Positions 3,012 to 56,638 of a DNA stretch of 56,638 nucleotides are shown here, piece by piece. Every line of letters begins with the position of its first letter. Position 1 is the stretch's first letter. Position numbers and translations under genes: made by a program. A model generated the notes under the pieces. That model did no database searches. It had not been told where the DNA came from and worked only from the letters and a program-made list of their open reading frames with translations. This DNA is from Bacillota bacterium (lineage in GTDB: Bacteria; Bacillota; Clostridia; Caldicoprobacterales; DTU083), in NCBI GenBank assembly GCA_029549985.1, contig JAKPIB010000035.1, forward strand, positions 93,319 to 149,956, written 5' to 3'.

Positions 3012-4306
3012 AAGCAACAGTTATCGGCGCAGGACTGGCAGGATGTGAAGCTGCATGGCAGTTGGCTGAGAATAATGTCAAGGTGACCTTGTATGAAATG
3101 CGCCCGAAGAAAATGACACCCGCACACCACTCTGCCAAATTGGCGGAGCTGGTGTGCAGCAATTCTTTAAGGGCAGATGGACTTGAAAATGCAGTCGGAC
3201 TGTTGAAAGAAGAGATGCGGCGGATGAACTCGCTCATAATGCACGCTGCCGATAGGTACAGGATACCTGCAGGAGGTGCTTTGGCAGTCGACCGGGAGAA
3301 ATTTTCTGCCTATATCACTGATAAGATCGAAAACCACCCAAATATTGAGCTTATCCGAGAAGAGATAACTGACATACCGCTGGATCAGCCTGTCATTATA
3401 GCCACAGGCCCGCTGACGAGTGACGGCTTGTCTATCAAAATTTCGGAACTGGTGCATGGCAACCATTTGCATTTTTACGATGCAGCAGCACCAATCGTCA
3501 CCTATGAATCCATAGACCGATCCAAGGTATTCAAGGGGTCAAGGTACAATAGGGGTGATGACTATATCAACTGCCCCATGACCAATGAAGAATATCTTGC
3601 CTTCTATCATGAGCTGATCAATGCAGAAACAGCGCCGGTCCATGATTTTGAAGATGCAAAGGTGTTTGAGGGCTGTATGCCGATCGAAACCATGGCTAAG
3701 CGCGGGGTGGATACTATCCGCTTTGGCCCCCTGAAGCCTGTTGGGTTTGTGGACAAGCTGGCCGGAAAGGTACCCTATGCAGTGGTCCAGCTCAGGCAGG
3801 ACAATGCAGAAGGCACACTATATAATATTGTAGGGTTTCAAACACGCCTCAAGTTCGGGGAGCAAAAACGGGTGTTTTCCATGATCCCTGGGCTTGAAAA
3901 TGCAGAGTTTGTGCGCTACGGAGTGATGCACCGAAATACCTTTATAAACTCACCCAGGCTTCTGGACAGGTTTTACCGACTAAGAAGCAATAGCAATGTC
4001 TTTTTTGCCGGGCAGATAACCGGAGTGGAAGGGTATGTGGAATCCGCTTCTTCCGGACTGTTGGCCGGTCTGAACTTGTCAAGGATCCTTTACGGTAAAG
4101 AACCCATCGATTTTACCGACCAAACAGCTATTGGAGCACTGGCTCATTATGTATCCAACCCATCGATCAGGAATTTCCAGCCTATGAATGTCAACTTCGG
4201 GATAATGGCCCCTTTGGATGAACGCATAAAAAACAGGTCGTTAAGGAACCAAAGTCTGTCCCGAAGGGCATTGGAAGTGCTTGACTCAATGCTTGGTACC
4301 AGTTAA
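3008..4306 (+). CDS. trmFO: tRNA (uracil-54-C5)-methyltransferase, folate/FAD-dependent
   Basis: TrmFO makes ribothymidine at position 54 of the tRNA T-loop, using methylenetetrahydrofolate and FAD. The N-terminus has the [14 protein letters not shown] dinucleotide-binding motif (residues 6-19), then YEMRP and CSNSLR; near the C-terminus are [24 protein letters not shown] and NVNFGIM. At 432 aa it is full length. The ATG overlaps the topA stop. In Bacillus this gene is followed by a xerC-type recombinase (codV), but here hslV comes next. Confidence 0.96.
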
Positions 4307-4320
4307 TGACATTATAAAAG

Positions 4321-4349
4321 TTGAACTGTCATACATTATGTGATAATAT
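4321..4349 (+). promoter_or_regulatory. Candidate sigma-A promoter for hslV-hslU-codY
   Basis: TTGAAC (4321-4326) is followed after 17 bp by TAATAT (4344-4349) in the gap between trmFO and hslV. The -35 is good and the -10 only moderate. It would separate hslVU-codY from the dprA-topA-trmFO unit. Inferred from spacing and hexamers only. Confidence 0.4.
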
Positions 4350-4375
4350 GTCTTTGATTCAATGAAAAGGGGTGT

Positions 4376-4915
4376 TTGCCGCCTATGCTGAAGGGCACGA
4401 CGATAGTCGCGGCCAGGAAAAACGGCTGCGGTGCTATTGCAGGTGATGGCCAGGTCACTATGGGACAGACCACTATTATGAAGCATAATGCAAGAAAGGT
4501 CAGAAGGCTATACAACGATAACGTAGTAGTAGGATTTGCGGGATCAGTGGCGGATGCCTTTACTCTCAGCGAAAAGCTTGAGACCAAGCTTGAAGAGTAT
4601 TCAGGCAACCTGCAGCGGGCTGCAGTCGAACTGGCTAAGGAGTGGCGGTCGGACAAGGTACTGCACAAGCTGGAAGCTATGCTGATAGCTATGGATAAGG
4701 ACAACCTGTTCATTATCTCAGGTACCGGAGAGGTTATTGAACCTGACGATGATGTAGCTGCTATAGGTTCAGGTGGCATGTATGCTCTGGCTGCAGCCAA
4801 AGCGCTTATACGCAATACGGACTTGACCCCTGTCGAGATTGTGACAGAATCGTTGAAAATAGCTTCGTCTATTTGTGTGTATACCAATGACAATATACAT
4901 GTTGAAGAACTGTAG
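4376..4915 (+). CDS. hslV: ATP-dependent protease peptidase subunit HslV (ClpQ)
   Basis: Proteasome-like N-terminal nucleophile peptidase of the HslVU protease. The mature enzyme should begin at the second half of the [12 protein letters not shown] segment, exposing a catalytic threonine; GDGQVTMG and the [11 protein letters not shown] segment are typical of the family. Length is 179 aa. The start is probably TTG 4376, 4-5 bases after AAAAGGGG; ATG 4385 is an alternative and changes only the propeptide. It lies 15 bp upstream of hslU, its ATPase partner. Confidence 0.95.
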
Positions 4916-41020: not shown

Positions 41021-42448
41021 CTATAAGGCCTGTTTGGATAGAATGAGTTGTTGAGACAGCTCAATCAGCTTTTGCCATTTAGCAGGCATGTTAGGTATAG
41101 ATTCAAGCTCGGGTGTAGAGTTCAACGGTTGCCAATAGGTGTAGGAATGAGGGCGAAGGAAATTGTAATAGGCTACAAACAAGGCGACATGAGTGTTTGA
41201 ACCTTCTCCGCTACCATAGCCGTTAGTAACCTGGTAAGAGAATTTAAAGGTTCTGTTAAGCCGTTCAATAATTTGCTTTAACCAGCGGTATTCGGTAGAA
41301 ACGGGATCTTCATTAGTCAATCCGATTACCTGAGTGAGGTCAAATTCCATGTCGTTAAGAAAGAACTGTTGCTGTGCAAGATTATACGCACTGTAGGCAT
41401 CAGAAATGAATTTAAGAGCTTTGCCGGGGAATTTCTTGAACTTTGAAAAAGCCATACGCATAGCTAAAATACAAGGCCCGACATCTCTTGTACCAGATAC
41501 CTGGTACCCCAGGATAGACTTTTTGAGGGCATCCATGATGAACCAAACATAGTGCCTTACACCTTTAACTTTGACATAGGTTTCATCGGCAGCAAGGTAA
41601 TTGGAGGGCTTGTAATCGTAGCTATCAACAAAAGGCTTAACAATAGCAGCAGCGGTTTTAGCATAGATGCTTACCATGACATGGGAAATCCTGACTTGGT
41701 GTATTTCCCAAAGGGCCCTTGCAGTGGCACGGGTAGATAAGCCGAGATTGACATGATAAGTGAGACAAAGGCCCATGATATGAGGAGAAAAAGTTCTGAA
41801 ATTAAAATTAACAGAACCCTTAGGCATGGAGTCCAGATCCATTTTAAAGAAATCTACGGTGAATTCACGGTAATAATAACGTAGCTTGAATCTTTCGGGG
41901 TGAAGCCTGTATTCCTCAGTATCTTCTGGAGAAAGAGACTTAAGGGAATTGTTGTAGAATTTGCAGTTATCATTATGGCAGAAATATACCTTGAATTGCT
42001 TGCGTTCTCTCTTAAATGACAAAGCATGGCCACAATAAGGGCAGGCTAAGTAGGTATTAAAGGATTTACCTCTATTGAAACGCAAAGAACACACTTTGCA
42101 AAGATATTGACCACGGCCACCGGTATTATCATAGATGTATTGATGAGGAGCTCCGCAACGGGGGCATACAGTTTCTTTAGGAACAGGGGTTTTTCCACGA
42201 GATTTTATAGGTTTAAGCTCTTTGTCGTGTTGTATGAAGTAGTCATTTAGCAGATGCTTGTAATTGAGTTTTTCAAGGGTTTTGACAACGGGCAGTTTAT
42301 CGACTGTAAACTTATTATACTTAGGGCTTGATAAATCAGGTTTTGAGGACTTAAGAGGTATATTCTTCGCGATAAAAACTAACAATTGCTGGATTTGTAA
42401 AATTAAAAATTGATTATATGCTACTAAAACTGATATAATTGAGTTCAC
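41021..42448 (-). CDS. IS6-like DDE transposase with N-terminal zinc ribbons
   Basis: A 475-aa transposase. Two zinc-ribbon motifs lie at about residues 95-120 (CPRCGAPHQ ... CKVC) and 136-162 (CPYCGHAL ... CHNDNC). Then a helix-turn-helix-like region (LGLSTRATARALWEIHQVRISHVMV) and a DDE catalytic core with Asp288 in AADETYVKVKG, Asp350 in FISDAYSAY and Glu395 in QIIERLNRTFK. This core resembles the IS6/IS240 group. It is intact with a GTG start after AAAGGAAG, so it is probably active or recently active. Confidence 0.88.
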   Translation of the reverse strand: MNSIISVLVAYNQFLILQIQQLLVFIAKNIPLKSSKPDLSSPKYNKFTVDKLPVVKTLEKLNYKHLLNDYFIQHDKELKPIKSRGKTPVPKETVCPRCGAPHQYIYDNTGGRGQYLCKVCSLRFNRGKSFNTYLACPYCGHALSFKRERKQFKVYFCHNDNCKFYNNSLKSLSPEDTEEYRLHPERFKLRYYYREFTVDFFKMDLDSMPKGSVNFNFRTFSPHIMGLCLTYHVNLGLSTRATARALWEIHQVRISHVMVSIYAKTAAAIVKPFVDSYDYKPSNYLAADETYVKVKGVRHYVWFIMDALKKSILGYQVSGTRDVGPCILAMRMAFSKFKKFPGKALKFISDAYSAYNLAQQQFFLNDMEFDLTQVIGLTNEDPVSTEYRWLKQIIERLNRTFKFSYQVTNGYGSGEGSNTHVALFVAYYNFLRPHSYTYWQPLNSTPELESIPNMPAKWQKLIELSQQLILSKQAL

Positions 42449-47167: not shown

Positions 47168-48259
47168 ATGATAGAGATAAAGACAGGGAGGGTCATTAGA
47201 GTCCTGTCAGAAAGCAAGGATAAAACAGAAGTCCTGCTTGATATCGATCATCCTGTCAAAAAAGCGATAAACTATAACTCATTGACCGGCAAGGTATCAG
47301 TAGGTGATATGCTATACCTGAATACTACTGCTGGCTCTTTGTCTCTAGGTACTGGAGGCTGGCATTTCGTTATAGCGAACGCATCCTGTAAATGTCTTGA
47401 TCATATGCCGCTTGGGCACGGAATGAAGGTCAGGTATAGCCCAATGCAGGTGCAGATCCCATTCGTTGAGGAAGAAAACAAGGCTGATCCCGATTTATAT
47501 AATGCCGGGTTGGATCTAAGGGGAAAGCTAGTGATCTTCGGTGAGTTGCACAGTATGCTGCCCCCTGCATGCGCCTTCCTCAAACTATATGGCAATGGAA
47601 ATACTAAGACGGCCTATATCATGACAGACCACGCTGCCCTGCCTATTTGCTTTTCTGATAATGTAAGCCTGCTAAAGCAAAAGGGACTTCTGGATTTGAC
47701 TATAACCACAGGTAATGCCTTCGGTGGAGATAAGGAATGTGTAAATATATATACAGCTTTCCAGACTGCCGCATCAATGGCCAACGCTATTATAGTCACT
47801 ATGGGTCCGGGTATCTCAGGCACAGGGACTAAGTATGGCTTTTCCGGCTTGGAACTGGCTTTTTATGTCGATTTAGCCTCCCGGTACGGGGCCAGTTGCA
47901 TCTATATACCAAGGATAAGCTTTGCAGATAAGCGGTTACGCCATTATGGTATCAGCCATCACTCTATGACGATAATGAGTGAATTTCTTCATGAGACTGT
48001 GTATATTGCTTTACCTATAGTGGAGAAGAAAAAACTGAAGTTTATGTTCAGGCAAATCAGGTCTGCAGGACTTCCCTTGTCAATAAGACTTTCGATACTT
48101 GATGGCCGGGGAGTTGAAAAGGCTATGATGGTATATGGACTAGAGACAACATCGATGGGTAGGGGATTTAAGGACGATCCATGCTTTTTTCTTGCCATAG
48201 GAGCATCATGTGCTAAAGGCTTGCAACTGCTTACCGTGAATCCGGTATATCAAAAATAA
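47168..48259 (+). CDS. DUF3866 family protein
   Basis: A 363-aa soluble protein of the DUF3866 family, widespread in Firmicutes and Actinobacteria and often near division genes. Features: an N-terminal beta-rich region (GRVIRVLSESKDKTEVLLDI), AYIMTDHAALPICFSD, ITTGNAFGGDKECVNIYTAF, VTMGPGISGTGTKYGFSGLELAF and RISFADKRLRHYGISHHSMT. The conserved Asp, His and Gly motifs look enzymatic, but no activity is known. It overlaps the next ATG by one base. Confidence 0.82.
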   Translation: MIEIKTGRVIRVLSESKDKTEVLLDIDHPVKKAINYNSLTGKVSVGDMLYLNTTAGSLSLGTGGWHFVIANASCKCLDHMPLGHGMKVRYSPMQVQIPFVEEENKADPDLYNAGLDLRGKLVIFGELHSMLPPACAFLKLYGNGNTKTAYIMTDHAALPICFSDNVSLLKQKGLLDLTITTGNAFGGDKECVNIYTAFQTAASMANAIIVTMGPGISGTGTKYGFSGLELAFYVDLASRYGASCIYIPRISFADKRLRHYGISHHSMTIMSEFLHETVYIALPIVEKKKLKFMFRQIRSAGLPLSIRLSILDGRGVEKAMMVYGLETTSMGRGFKDDPCFFLAIGASCAKGLQLLTVNPVYQK

Positions 48260-48978
48260 TGTCGGATGAGTTATATATGCTTTCTCAAATGCATACTAAT
48301 CATTATAGTGTACAAGCATATAAGCAAGGGGGCTCAGGTACAGTGTTCAACCGCCTGAAGTCAAATGTTGTTCAGCACTTTAAGCAAAATCTTATCCTAT
48401 ATCTGATAATAGGTTTTGCAGTTATAACCGGAGTTACTACCGGCTTGTTCACTGTAGGGGCAATGCAAGAAAGTCAGAAGGAAGACCTGGCTGAATATAT
48501 CAGTTTTTTTTTCAGTAGTTCCCTCAATGAGTCTGTCAATGGCATCCAGGTGTTTTTGCTGTCTGCCTGGCAGCACTTTCAATTCTTCTTATTGATATGG
48601 CTATCGGGGATGCTTCTTCCTGGAATGCCTGTAACTTTCATTTTGATTGGTATACGCAGCTTTTTTATAGGCTTTACTATCAGTTTCATAGTAGGTCAAT
48701 ATGATCTGGGTGGAGCCTTGTTTGTGCTTGTATGCATTCTACCTCAGTCGTTACTTTATGTACCGTGTTATATGGGTCTTGGAGTACTGGCCCTGGAAAA
48801 TGCGATAAAAAAGTTCAGGACCAGAAAGATGAAATTCACAAGGGAGGAAAACTTTAAAAATTTTGCGGCTTATACGGTAAAATTTGTAACTATTTTTCTG
48901 GCCTTGATCTTAGGCAGCGTCTTCGAGTCTTTCGTAATGCCATTACTGGTCGGCCTTTTCAAATGGGTATTTAGCTGA
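48259..48978 (+). CDS. spoIIM: Stage II sporulation protein M
   Basis: Component of the SpoIIDMP complex that removes septal peptidoglycan during engulfment. Five membrane segments, including LILYLIIGFAVITGVTTGLFTVGAM, LLIWLSGMLLPGMPVTFILIG and RSFFIGFTISFIVGQ, with LPQSLLYVPCYMGLG. An ATG overlapping the previous stop gives 239 aa. A GTG at 48343 after AAGGGGG gives 212 aa, closer to family length, and may be the true start. No spoIID or spoIIP is nearby. Confidence 0.9.
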   Translation: MSDELYMLSQMHTNHYSVQAYKQGGSGTVFNRLKSNVVQHFKQNLILYLIIGFAVITGVTTGLFTVGAMQESQKEDLAEYISFFFSSSLNESVNGIQVFLLSAWQHFQFFLLIWLSGMLLPGMPVTFILIGIRSFFIGFTISFIVGQYDLGGALFVLVCILPQSLLYVPCYMGLGVLALENAIKKFRTRKMKFTREENFKNFAAYTVKFVTIFLALILGSVFESFVMPLLVGLFKWVFS

Positions 48979-49060
48979 TAGGTATTGCAAACCTTGGAGG
49001 ATTTTTTAATTATATGTTGAATTATTAAAGTAGTACATAAAGATTAGAGGTTAGTTGAAA

Positions 49061-49900
49061 ATGGGCTTTTACTTAAGAGAGTTCGAAGAATACCTGAGTT
49101 CCGAGAAGTCTTTGTCAACTGTCACGCTAAAGTCATATACTACTGATATAAAGCAGTATATTGCTTATCTTGAGTCTAAAAGCATTACTGACATAAGGCA
49201 GACCTCCAATGCTTCTGTGTTGTCCTATATGCTTTATCTGGAAAAGCATAACGCAGTCTCTACAGTGTTGCGTAAACTTTCCGCCTTGAAAAGTTACTAT
49301 CTGTTTTTATTCACCAGCCATATCATCGATAAGGATCCTACATCAAATCTTAAGCTGCCGAAAAGTGAACGCAAGGTTCCATCTGCCCTGACAGTCGAGG
49401 AAGTCGGTTTGCTCATGGAGCAGCCAATGGGAAATGACCCAAAGTCCATCAGAGACAAAGCCATGCTGGAGCTTATATATGCAACAGGGATTCGTGTTTC
49501 CGAGCTCATAGCCTTGAATACATATGACCTTGACCTGGCACTGGGTATAGTAGTCTTGAGCGGTTCAGGGAAAACACGAGCTATCCCCTTAGGCAAATCT
49601 GCCATAAGCGCTCTCGAAACATACCTGAAGCAAGCCAGAGTTGTGCTTGTACGTGACGAAAACGAGACCGCCCTTTTCGTAAATATGCATGGAAAGCCAA
49701 TGACAAGGCAGGGATTTTGGAAAATCCTTAAGCAGTATAATCAGGCCGCAGGTATCAGCAAGCATATCACGCCCCAGACGCTCAGACACTCATTCGCCAT
49801 GCATCTTATAAGCAAAGGGGCTGACATCCGTTCAGTACAGGAGCTGCTTGGGCATGCTGATATCTCAACTACACAAATATACAACCAGAGTAAGGCTTGA
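49061..49900 (+). CDS. xerD: Tyrosine recombinase XerD (3' end eroded)
   Basis: Site-specific recombinase normally needed to resolve chromosome dimers at dif. N-terminal SAM-like domain (FYLREFEEYLSSEKSLSTVTLKSYTTDI) and catalytic domain with ATGIRVSEL (Arg), GSGKTRAIPLG (Lys), TPQTLRHSF, LLGHADISTTQIY (His, Tyr). The first residue of the H-x-x-R box is Gln, not His, and the protein ends 5 residues after the catalytic Tyr, lacking the usual tail ending in HPRA. Remains of that tail occur in another frame at 49883-49940. Function is doubtful. Confidence 0.85.
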   Translation: MGFYLREFEEYLSSEKSLSTVTLKSYTTDIKQYIAYLESKSITDIRQTSNASVLSYMLYLEKHNAVSTVLRKLSALKSYYLFLFTSHIIDKDPTSNLKLPKSERKVPSALTVEEVGLLMEQPMGNDPKSIRDKAMLELIYATGIRVSELIALNTYDLDLALGIVVLSGSGKTRAIPLGKSAISALETYLKQARVVLVRDENETALFVNMHGKPMTRQGFWKILKQYNQAAGISKHITPQTLRHSFAMHLISKGADIRSVQELLGHADISTTQIYNQSKA

Positions 49901-49938
49901 ACTAAAAGGAGTAGTACAATAAGCACATCATAGAGCAC

Positions 49939-49974
49939 AATAAAGCCAATCCATCCGGAAGGGCTTTATTTTAT
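49939..49974 (+). terminator. Rho-independent terminator after xerD
   Basis: AATAAAGCC and GGCTTTATT form a 9-bp stem around a 14-nt loop, followed by TTATG. Confidence 0.6.
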
Positions 49975-50032: not shown

Positions 50033-51199
50033 ATGTCAAAAGTAATTCTGATCGTTATGGACAGTGTTGGGATAGGCGAACTACCTGATGCATCAAAATA
50101 TGGCGATGAAGGCAGCGATACATTGGGCAATATCATATCCGACCTGGGCAGTCTTGAAATACCAAACATGATAAGACTGGGGCTTGGAAATATCACAAAC
50201 GTAAATATACCATACTCATCAAAAGCGCCAATCGGCTGCTTTGGAAAAGCAGCCGAAGCCTCTGCCGGAAAGGATACGACCACAGGCCATTGGGAAATAG
50301 CAGGGCTGCAGCTAAAAACTCCTTTTCCCGTATACCCTGATGGTTTTCCGAAGGAGGTAATGGATGCATTCCATGCTGCCACAGGTGTCCAGACCATGTG
50401 GAACAAACCTGCATCCGGCAGTGAGATCATACAAAGATTAGGTGAAGAGCATATGAAGACCGGAAAGCTGATAGTATACACATCAGCGGATAGCGTTTTC
50501 CAGATAGCAGCTCATGAGGAAATCGTACCGGTCGAAAAACTATATGAGTACTGCAGGGCTGCAAGAGGCATACTCCAGGGGCCTCATGCTGTAGGCAGGG
50601 TCATAGCCAGACCCTTTGCGGGTGAGCCCGGGAACTTCCAACGTACAATGAACAGAAAGGATTTTTCCCTGCCGCCGGTCGGAAACACAATACTGGATCT
50701 GATTATTGAAAATAGCCTGACGACCGTTGGAATAGGCAAAATAGGTGATATATTTGCCAACAGGGGCCTTAGCAGGATACTGCACACCAAGGATAATGAC
50801 CAGGGCATAGACGTAACTCTGGAACAGATGAAAGAGGATTTTGACGGGTTGATATTCACCAACCTGGTGGATTTTGACATGCTATATGGCCACCGTAACA
50901 ATACCATAGGATATGCCCGGGCTCTTGAAGCCTTTGACAGGAGAATACCGGAGCTTATGGATGCCATGGGCGATAAGGACATTTTGATCATAACCGCAGA
51001 CCACGGCTGCGATCCGACAACGCCCAGCACAGATCATTCACGAGAATATGTACCTATCCTTGTATACGGCAGATCTATAAAAGCAGGAGTGAATCTTGGT
51101 ATACGTGCCACATACAGCGATATAGGAGCAACAGTGCTTGATCTCCTAGGCATACAACCGGTGCTCGCAGGTTCCAGCTTTACAGACATGATACTATAA
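50033..51199 (+). CDS. deoB: Phosphopentomutase
   Basis: Interconverts ribose/deoxyribose 1- and 5-phosphates in nucleoside salvage. Alkaline phosphatase-like metal sites: [16 protein letters not shown] near the start, [12 protein letters not shown] with the phosphorylated Thr, [10 protein letters not shown], and [22 protein letters not shown]. Length is 388 aa. ATG 50033 follows TTGGAGGT. It forms an operon with punA, whose ribose 1-phosphate product it uses. Confidence 0.96.
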
Positions 51200-54003: not shown

Positions 54004-54738
54004 ATGACATACAAGGTTATACTGGAACAATTTGAAGGTCCCCTGGATCTGCTCCTGCATCTCATATCAAAGGCCAAGATCCAGATCGAAGATATTTCTA
54101 TTGCCGAGATAACTCAGCAATATCTGGATGTCATAGAAGAAATGCAGCAATTCGATATCGAGGTAGCCAGCGAGTTCCTGGTCATGGCTGCCACTCTGCT
54201 TCATATAAAATCATGTATGCTGCTTCCAAGGCAGAATATAGGAGCAGATGACGAAGATGTTGCCGATTCCAGAGAGGATTTGATCGAAAAGCTACTGGAG
54301 TATAAAAAGTACAAGGAAGCGAGCGAACAACTGCAGAAAAGAGAAGAATACTACTCCGGTATCTTCACCAAGCTTCCGGAAGAGCTGTTTACCAGCAATG
54401 AAGACGTCCTGGCTAATGACATAACAGTCTGTCAATTGGTAGATGCACTGACTACGCTGCTTAGAAGCAAAAAGCACGAGGAGAAAAAAGCGCCTCTGGT
54501 GCATGAGATAAGGCGTGATCCTGTTACTATCAAGGAACGCATAAAGCAGTTGAAAAAATACTTCCTTTACACAGAATCCACTTCCTTTTCAAAGCTCTTT
54601 GAAGATGACAGGACCAAAGAAGACATAATCATAACCTTTCTGGCCCTGCTTGAGCTCTTAAAGGAAAATTACATAGTAGTCATGCAGAATAAACCTTTTG
54701 GCGATATAGCAATAAAAAGGAGAATAACCGATGGATGA
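54004..54738 (+). CDS. scpA: Segregation and condensation protein ScpA
   Basis: Kleisin subunit bridging SMC heads. N-terminal FEGPLDLLLHLISKAKIQIEDISIAEITQQYL and EFLVMAATLLHIKSCMLLP are signatures; the C-terminal winged helix (IITFLALLELLKENYIVVMQNKPFGDI) contacts SMC. Length is 244 aa. It overlaps scpB by 8 bp. Confidence 0.95.
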   Translation: MTYKVILEQFEGPLDLLLHLISKAKIQIEDISIAEITQQYLDVIEEMQQFDIEVASEFLVMAATLLHIKSCMLLPRQNIGADDEDVADSREDLIEKLLEYKKYKEASEQLQKREEYYSGIFTKLPEELFTSNEDVLANDITVCQLVDALTTLLRSKKHEEKKAPLVHEIRRDPVTIKERIKQLKKYFLYTESTSFSKLFEDDRTKEDIIITFLALLELLKENYIVVMQNKPFGDIAIKRRITDG

Positions 54739-55246
54739 ACGGGATATGATGGCAATAGCAGAATCCATCCTATTCGTTTCAGGTGAGCCTGTTGAACTAA
54801 AGGATTTGGCTGACCTGCTAGGGATTGACCAACGCAAGGCTAAAAAGCTTATGGAATCGATGACAGATTGCTTTAACTTTGAACGGCGGGGTCTTCAGAT
54901 AATTGCTCTAAACGGAAAATACCAACTGGCAACCCGGCCCGAACATAGCGAACATATCGAGAAGTTCATAGGCCAGGAAAGAGGTCAGACCCTGTCTCAG
55001 GCTGCCTTGGAGACCCTTGCGATCATCGCCTATAAACAACCTATAACCAAATCGGAAGTCGACGCCATTAGGGGAGTCAAGTCTGATCATACTATTTCAG
55101 TACTTATAAACAGAGGTTATATATGTGAAACCGGCAGGAAGGATTCACCGGGAAGACCTATCCTGTATGGTACCACTGACCTTTTCCTGCGGAATTTTGG
55201 ATTAAACTCACTCAAGGACCTGCCTCCGATAGACAATAACAGATGA
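54731..55246 (+). CDS. scpB: Segregation and condensation protein ScpB
   Basis: Tandem winged-helix dimer that binds ScpA in the SMC complex. AIAESILFVSGEPVELKDLADLLGI, GLQIIALNGKYQLATRPEH, LSQAALETLAIIAYKQPITKSEVDAIRGV and the C-terminal GRPILYGTTDLFLRNFGLNSLKDLPP are diagnostic. Length is 171 aa. Confidence 0.95.
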   Translation: MDERDMMAIAESILFVSGEPVELKDLADLLGIDQRKAKKLMESMTDCFNFERRGLQIIALNGKYQLATRPEHSEHIEKFIGQERGQTLSQAALETLAIIAYKQPITKSEVDAIRGVKSDHTISVLINRGYICETGRKDSPGRPILYGTTDLFLRNFGLNSLKDLPPIDNNR

Positions 55247-56374: not shown

Positions 56375-56400
56375 AAGGCGGCGAACAGCCGCTTTAATTT
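56374..56400 (+). terminator. Rho-independent terminator after gerW
   Basis: AAAGGCGGC and GCCGCTTT pair, with one bulged G and a 5-nt loop, then TAATTTTGC. Moderate. Confidence 0.55.
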
Positions 56401-56423
56401 TGCTATACAATATGGAGGATAAA

Positions 56424-56537
56424 ATGAAAACTGTAAAAATCACACTGGTTGTCACACTTTTATTGATGTATACTTGCTTTGGGGCGAATGCTGCAGAGAT
56501 AAGGTATAATATTTTTCGCACATTTGAAATTGAATAA
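56424..56537 (+). pseudogene. Remnant of a secreted protein gene cut by an IS256-like element
   Basis: An ATG after TATGGAGGA begins a typical signal peptide (MKTVKITLVVTLLLMYTCFGANA), but only 14 residues follow it before a stop at the edge of the next element. A start site and signal peptide without a mature protein suggest a disrupted gene. In Clostridia gerW is often followed by dacB (D-Ala-D-Ala carboxypeptidase) and spmAB, so dacB is the best guess for what was lost. It could instead be a genuine 37-aa peptide. Confidence 0.5.
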
Positions 56538-56598
56538 GGCGATCCAATAGTGTATATTTAAGTTACCACACAAAAACAACACAAAGGAGGACCGCCTT
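56536..56598. repeat. Inverted repeat that would cover the transposase ribosome site
   Basis: AAGGCGATCC (56536-56545) pairs with GGACCGCCTT (56589-56598) at 9 of 10 positions plus one G-U. The right arm follows AGGAGG and ends at the ATG. Transcripts entering from outside could fold this and be poorly translated. Confidence 0.5.
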
Positions 56599-56638
56599 AT
56601 GGATAACATTATACACCTAAACGAAGAAGTAATAAAGG
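56599..56638 (+). CDS. IS256-family transposase (5' end only)
   Basis: Only 13 codons are in the window. They read MDNIIHLNEEVIK, which matches the usual start of IS256-family transposases (xxIIxLNEEVIK). RBS AAAGGAGG. The rest lies beyond the window. The left end of the element probably falls near 56537, but its terminal repeat cannot be defined without the other end. Confidence 0.65.
   Translation, partial: MDNIIHLNEEVIK

Follow-up and report, generated by a model that had tools for sequence, protein, structure and literature searches.

Loss of the C-terminal tail of XerD in an order of Clostridia that carries a XerS-like recombinase with its own dif-like site

XerD normally helps to separate joined chromosomes. 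Its C-terminal helix, alpha-N, is critical for the contacts between XerC and XerD, and archaeal XerA deprived of its last 13 residues, which make up this helix, keeps half-site cleavage but no longer recombines and forms fewer higher-order complexes (PMC3646895). The dif sites on which such enzymes act have a centre of 6-8 bp (PMC5357621). A single recombinase suffices in XerS/difSL of streptococci and lactococci, XerH/difH of epsilon-proteobacteria and XerL/dif of Legionellales (PMC5357621, PMC2731167, PMC9765430), and difSL and difH are marked by their uniqueness, their linkage to the recombinase gene and their position at the terminus (PMC2731167, PMC5357621). Lactobacillus helveticus has XerCD and XerS in one genome, a possible evolutionary intermediate for which horizontal transfer has been proposed (PMC3025954). 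In a further role, B. subtilis XerD is described as unloading SMC at terminus sites (Karaboja 2021, as cited in PMC10945525 and PMC12322038).

The XerD analysed here is encoded in a stretch of 56,638 nucleotides (the window) from the genome of a member of the Bacillota (G000). It resembles XerD (RipX) of XerCD/dif in its orthologous spoIIM-xerD-deoB-punA position, in its 52-53% identity to clostridial XerD and in its retained catalytic Arg, Arg, His and Tyr, but has no XerC partner and no alpha-N tail, shows no classical dif nearby, and carries Gln in box II. We compared it with other genomes of its family (f1), including the sole congener compared (G001, XerD 88% identical), with other families of its order (f2, f3 and f4) and with outgroups, of which G049 and G053 served in the site scans.

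A truncated XerD in a conserved neighbourhood

The xerD reading frame spans 49055-49900 on the forward strand, with the ATG at 49061 as its likely start. The relevant features of the region are:

48259-48978, forward: spoIIM, conserved neighbour by synteny
49061-49900, forward: xerD, truncated coding sequence of 279 aa, identified as the XerD ortholog from its sequence and from the gene order spoIIM-xerD-deoB-punA-dacF
49493-49495, forward: Arg145, first catalytic Arg, kept in the XerD alignment
49775-49777, forward: Gln239, replacing the box II His
49784-49786, forward: Arg242, second catalytic Arg, invariant among 15 aligned XerD
49880-49882, forward: Tyr274, nucleophile, invariant, in the last helix of the predicted model
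49898-49937, forward: decayed remnant of the alpha-N tail, marked by a stop codon, the loss of 2 nt and, in the old frame, another stop
50033-51199, forward: deoB, conserved neighbour, a yardstick for constraint on xerD
54004-55246, forward: scpA and scpB (named by synteny), SMC partners, 4 kb downstream of xerD

The five-gene order is shared with the complete genome of a relative (G008). Against the XerD equivalog profile TIGR02225 the window protein scores 316.3 bits, under the cut-off of 329.6, while that of the congener, whose tail is intact, scores 335.7 and lies above it. The low score thus coincides with the loss of the tail, and synteny and tree place the protein with XerD. Elsewhere in the window, a transposase-like ORF of 475 aa with a zinc-ribbon-like start (41021-42448, reverse strand) lies between spoIVB and spo0A, which are usually neighbours.

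The sequence-only reading of this DNA had described translation ending five residues past the catalytic Tyr and a +1 frame resembling the lost family tail. The protein does end in N-Q-S-K-A after Tyr274, followed by a TGA stop at 49898-49900, and the +1 frame past this stop reads TTRVRLELKGVVQ, TAA, AHHRAQ. Alignment with xerD of close relatives, above all the congener, whose C-terminus is the canonical YSQAKAGNVKEVIQKAHPRA, shows that the resemblance is genuine from LKGVVQ onward only (congener counterpart VKEVIQKAHPRA); the 'TRVR' part of it is a coincidence, since the true frame of the congener reads SQAKAGN there. The proposal that an ancestral end was broken by a shift and a nonsense change agrees with this alignment: where the congener has its canonical tail, the window shows a nonsense codon, then 2 missing nucleotides, then another stop. 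A programmed frameshift was considered and rejected because the TAA is met before AHHRA in the shifted frame. In all, 14 residues corresponding to helix alpha-N are missing, and the AlphaFold model of the protein (pLDDT 84) terminates with the Tyr274 helix (residues 268-278), itself of low confidence.

The remnant differs from the congener at 9 of its 40 bases. At first and second codon positions alone, the changes number 6 among 27 sites in the remnant and 40 among 558 in the body of the gene (p 0.014). The 837 bases of this body contain no indel and no stop relative to the congener. The tail is therefore truly lost by the measure of these sequences, having decayed once constraint on it was gone. 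A sequencing or assembly error, which the sequence-only reading had named as grounds for its own refutation, would be conceivable in a metagenome-like draft genome with a fragmented contig set that is the single assembly of its species. It is nevertheless very improbable, as one error could not produce nine substitutions together with a deletion and two stops, all of them in the tail, and the neighbouring genes are intact.

The body of xerD evolves under constraint, with a dN/dS of 0.064-0.097 between the window's genome and the congener, for which deoB (0.05), steA (0.06-0.08) and punA (0.11-0.14) serve as yardsticks in the same pair. By these usual signs, xerD of the window is a real, selected protein and not a pseudogene. 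It could be argued that it is a young pseudogene in the course of being lost, and that the selection measured predates the break: the break arose within the genus, outgroup comparison places 17 amino-acid changes on the window branch and 10 on that of the congener (5 unplaced), and xerD is gone from an entire sister family. However, 17 versus 10 is within chance, the body is clean, and the break is not brand new because the remnant has already changed so much while the body stayed constrained. Moreover, all five f3 genomes read have kept a XerD that lacks the tail, and its within-genus dN/dS is about 0.1-0.14. We regard such a pseudogene as unlikely.

The catalytic residues R145, R242, H265 and Y274 are present, and box II reads ITPQTLRHSF, so that the Q-T-L-R of the sequence-only reading is correct and the full H-x-x-R motif is lacking. 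That the changed box is damage was not supported: TPQTLRHSF is the same in the congener and in two other genera of f1 (G002 and G012), the remaining family members having His. Among the 79 outgroup XerD readable from named genomes, 78 have His at this position, and the one with Gln, from a Lachnospiraceae genome, has a normal tail. Gln at box II is tolerated in this enzyme family (PMC4381057), and here it was inherited within the family and is probably harmless. Loss of the catalytic Lys of the hairpin was dropped as a candidate second defect, because this hairpin is variable in clostridial XerD and several outgroups have no Lys at the E. coli position. By analogy with XerA lacking alpha-N, the protein of the window probably cannot complete recombination.

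Xer repertoire of the order and the XerS-like locus

The XerD proteins of the window's order form one clade (support 98/98), in which catalytic R, R, H and Y show little or no variation among the 15 aligned sequences. The canonical HPR(A) tail is found in 77 of 79 outgroup XerD and in only 1 of 16 from this order (Fisher p about 2e-14); put the other way, it is lost or eroded in 15/16 versus 2/79. All five f3 XerD, the f4 XerD and that of one f1 genome (G007) end within about 10 residues of the Tyr, and the other f1 proteins have altered tails, the congener being alone in the order in keeping a canonical one. Since this congener is nested inside f1, the tail was lost several times. In the near-complete genomes of f2 (G013, G016, G019 and G027) no XerD was found.

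In related Firmicutes, codV/xerC sits between trmFO and hslV. The window has a bare junction at this position, as the sequence-only reading had noticed:

4307-4375, forward: trmFO-hslV junction, 69 bases, no gene (trmFO ends at 4306, hslV starts at 4376)

A Pfam profile search of the whole genome assembly for other Xer proteins returned xerD as the single PF00589 match. The matches to XerD in the complete relative are XerD and a XerS-like protein, none of them XerC-like, and no classical asymmetric dif was found near xerD of the window. Judged from these genomes, XerC is lost throughout the order.

Every well assembled genome of the order encodes a XerS-like tyrosine recombinase of 354-369 aa between rnhA and lexA. 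Its best NCBIfam match is XerS (NF003462), with 181.3 and 182.9 bits, below the equivalog cut-off of 267. It is the sole Xer match in the four near-complete f2 genomes, and also in complete genomes of 0.8-1.2 Mb from the same class (G033, G071, G087 and G125). Directly upstream of the gene, at 24 of 24 loci of the order, lies an inverted repeat with the consensus ACTATGCGCAAAA-TACAAG-TTTTACG..AGT, a dif-like site of 32-34 bp with a 6-bp centre (the S site). In whole-genome scans, all 19 genomes of the order in which the locus is present had exactly one S site, and the outgroups G049 and G053 had none; a reversed control pattern gave 0. A perfect copy also occurs in G098, a member of a different family (loci L041-L064, L166).

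In the complete 3.13-Mb genome G008, the one in which terminus position was assessed, sampled GC skew is +0.126 before and -0.137 after a switch that lies no more than about 4 kb from the XerS-like gene, and the opposite switch lies near 0.95-1.0 Mb, 1.55 Mb or half a chromosome away, which places gene and S site at the replication terminus. The XerS-like protein probably acts at S to resolve dimers, so the surmise of the sequence-only reading that dimer resolution may use another recombinase is probably right. With XerS/difSL, XerH/difH and XerL/dif the locus shares a single recombinase, here of about 355 aa, and a dif-like repeat that adjoins its gene at the terminus. It differs from them in that the centre of S is 6 bp, not 11, and in that the XerS-like protein coexists with an orphan XerD in f1; from XerS itself it is set apart by its sub-cut-off score. 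L. helveticus likewise has XerD-type and XerS-type systems in one genome, but there XerC and XerD are both present, whereas the window's order has lost XerC and shows an eroding XerD.

In relatives, 15.5-18.8 kb separate xerD from the XerS-like gene downstream. The window's contig ends 6.7 kb downstream of xerD, apparently in an insertion sequence that sits within a second dacF-like gene:

56375-56638, forward: contig end, start of the second dacF-like gene followed by insertion-sequence-like DNA, the XerS-like locus being expected about 9-12 kb beyond

The gene is not in the assemblies of the window's genome or of the congener. A true absence from the genus was not accepted: lexA, a metC-like gene, mutL and rnhA were not found in the G000 assembly either, and the contig of the congener breaks off shortly after lexA, the XerS-like gene being the next one expected. 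We infer from these missing neighbours that the locus of the window's genome falls in an assembly gap. A purB-like gene of this genome (G000:C43:54614-55969) is next to purA and is GC-richer, while purB of the order adjoins rnhA; because of its purA context it is no marker of the gap. It may be a paralogue or belong to a misbinned contig.

A XerD-type palindrome beside S or inside smc

A second site (D) is a symmetric palindrome, GTTNACATAA-N5-TTATGTNAAC, 25-27 bp long, and all its copies have a 5-bp centre. Its arms match the XerD arm of B. subtilis dif, TTATGTAAACT (dif arm from PMC3025954). In a genome-wide scan restricted to the N5 spacing, it occurs one or two times per genome in 9 of 10 f1 genomes, including that of the window:

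G000:C8:59805-59829: D site of the window's genome, inside smc, 33.5 kb before the window start

No D site was found within one mismatch in f2, f3, f4, G049 or G053, and a reversed control gave 0. Outside the order, G064 has one beside its own XerS-like gene. The similarity of the arms and the restriction to one family make D the foremost candidate target of XerD.

D is located 0.1-0.6 kb from S in G002, G003, G007, G008 and G011, and inside smc, at the same codons, in six genomes from five genera (G000, G003, G004, G007, G010 and G012; loci L168, L169, L170, L173, L176 and L179). Two D sites coexist in G003 and in G007, and G008 and G011 have D at the terminus and none in smc. In the part of smc that was read, no 27-nt window is better conserved than D, which ranks first of 949, ahead of the ATP-binding region. 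The residues flanking it are unrelated among genomes, and codons are identical for 3 of the 4 conserved residues within it, as against 14 of 328 elsewhere (p 4e-4). Codon identity, unrelated flanks and top rank together point to selection on the DNA and not on the protein.

In L050, L051, L052 and L058, the D site upstream of the XerS-like gene has extra outer arms that vary from genome to genome yet remain complementary, giving a hairpin-like form. This extended form may overlap an rnhA terminator. The 100 kb examined of G016, a genome of f2, yielded no smc gene. Although it matches D, a palindrome near xerD of Alkaliphilus (L083) was set aside, since a T-run follows it and it looks like a terminator.

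What XerD may still do

The reading we favour, with a probability of roughly 60%, is that XerD has been retired from dimer resolution and kept as a DNA-binding protein of the terminus region, while the XerS-like protein at S resolves dimers. According to this model, one recombinase, the XerS-like protein, would resolve chromosome dimers across the order at a dif-like terminus site of its own. The decay of the XerCD pathway would follow from this takeover, with XerC lost throughout, the tail of XerD eroded or lost in most lineages and XerD itself gone in one family. In f1, XerD would be retained as a site-specific binder of D in the terminus region, beside the XerS-like gene or inside smc; the f1 protein still has its DNA-binding fold, along with most of the active site. 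Two findings count against a binding role: a pure binder would have no need of the catalytic residues (R, R, H and Y) that the order retains, and f3 XerD is tailless too, yet f3 has no D site of the kind scanned for.

The same catalytic residues could instead mean that XerD is still active on its own: a homotetramer of it would use D as a second dif, in the manner of XerA, and either alpha-N would not be needed or contacts with the XerS-like protein would stand in for it. A symmetric D with XerD-type arms on both sides is what would be expected once XerC was lost, and the Gln of box II is of a tolerated kind (PMC4381057). The degradation of alpha-N in all but one of the order's XerD speaks against this, given that XerA without the helix does not recombine (PMC3646895). 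So does the geometry of D: all copies found at the N5 spacing scanned measure 27 bp around a centre of 5 bp, compared with the 6-8 bp of dif (PMC5357621). Two D sites per genome, like the short centre, are odd for an active recombination site, since an active enzyme could delete or invert the DNA between them in G003 and G007. Solitary activity of XerD therefore seems to us rather improbable.

For XerD as a retained binding protein, the function could be sought in the role of its B. subtilis counterpart, likewise a site-specific binder near the terminus in the works that cite it (PMC10945525, PMC12322038). By this analogy, XerD of f1 may unload or stop SMC at D, and SMC unloading would account for a XerD that has neither XerC nor alpha-N. 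The two cases differ in that D lies inside smc, and the literature surveyed mentions no such site. As a tentative extension, less probable than the retirement itself, XerD of f1 would have become a recombination-dead terminus factor for SMC after the XerS-like takeover, its 27-bp palindrome being selected inside smc or beside the new dif.

The genomes of this order would then present a natural series, from intact to eroded to tailless to no XerD, of one dimer-resolution system replacing another. The model predicts an undescribed single-Xer module with a dif-like site in Clostridia and, as the unexpected element of the finding, a XerD-type site hidden in smc. A natural separation-of-function XerD could show which role selection preserves, recombination or SMC unloading.
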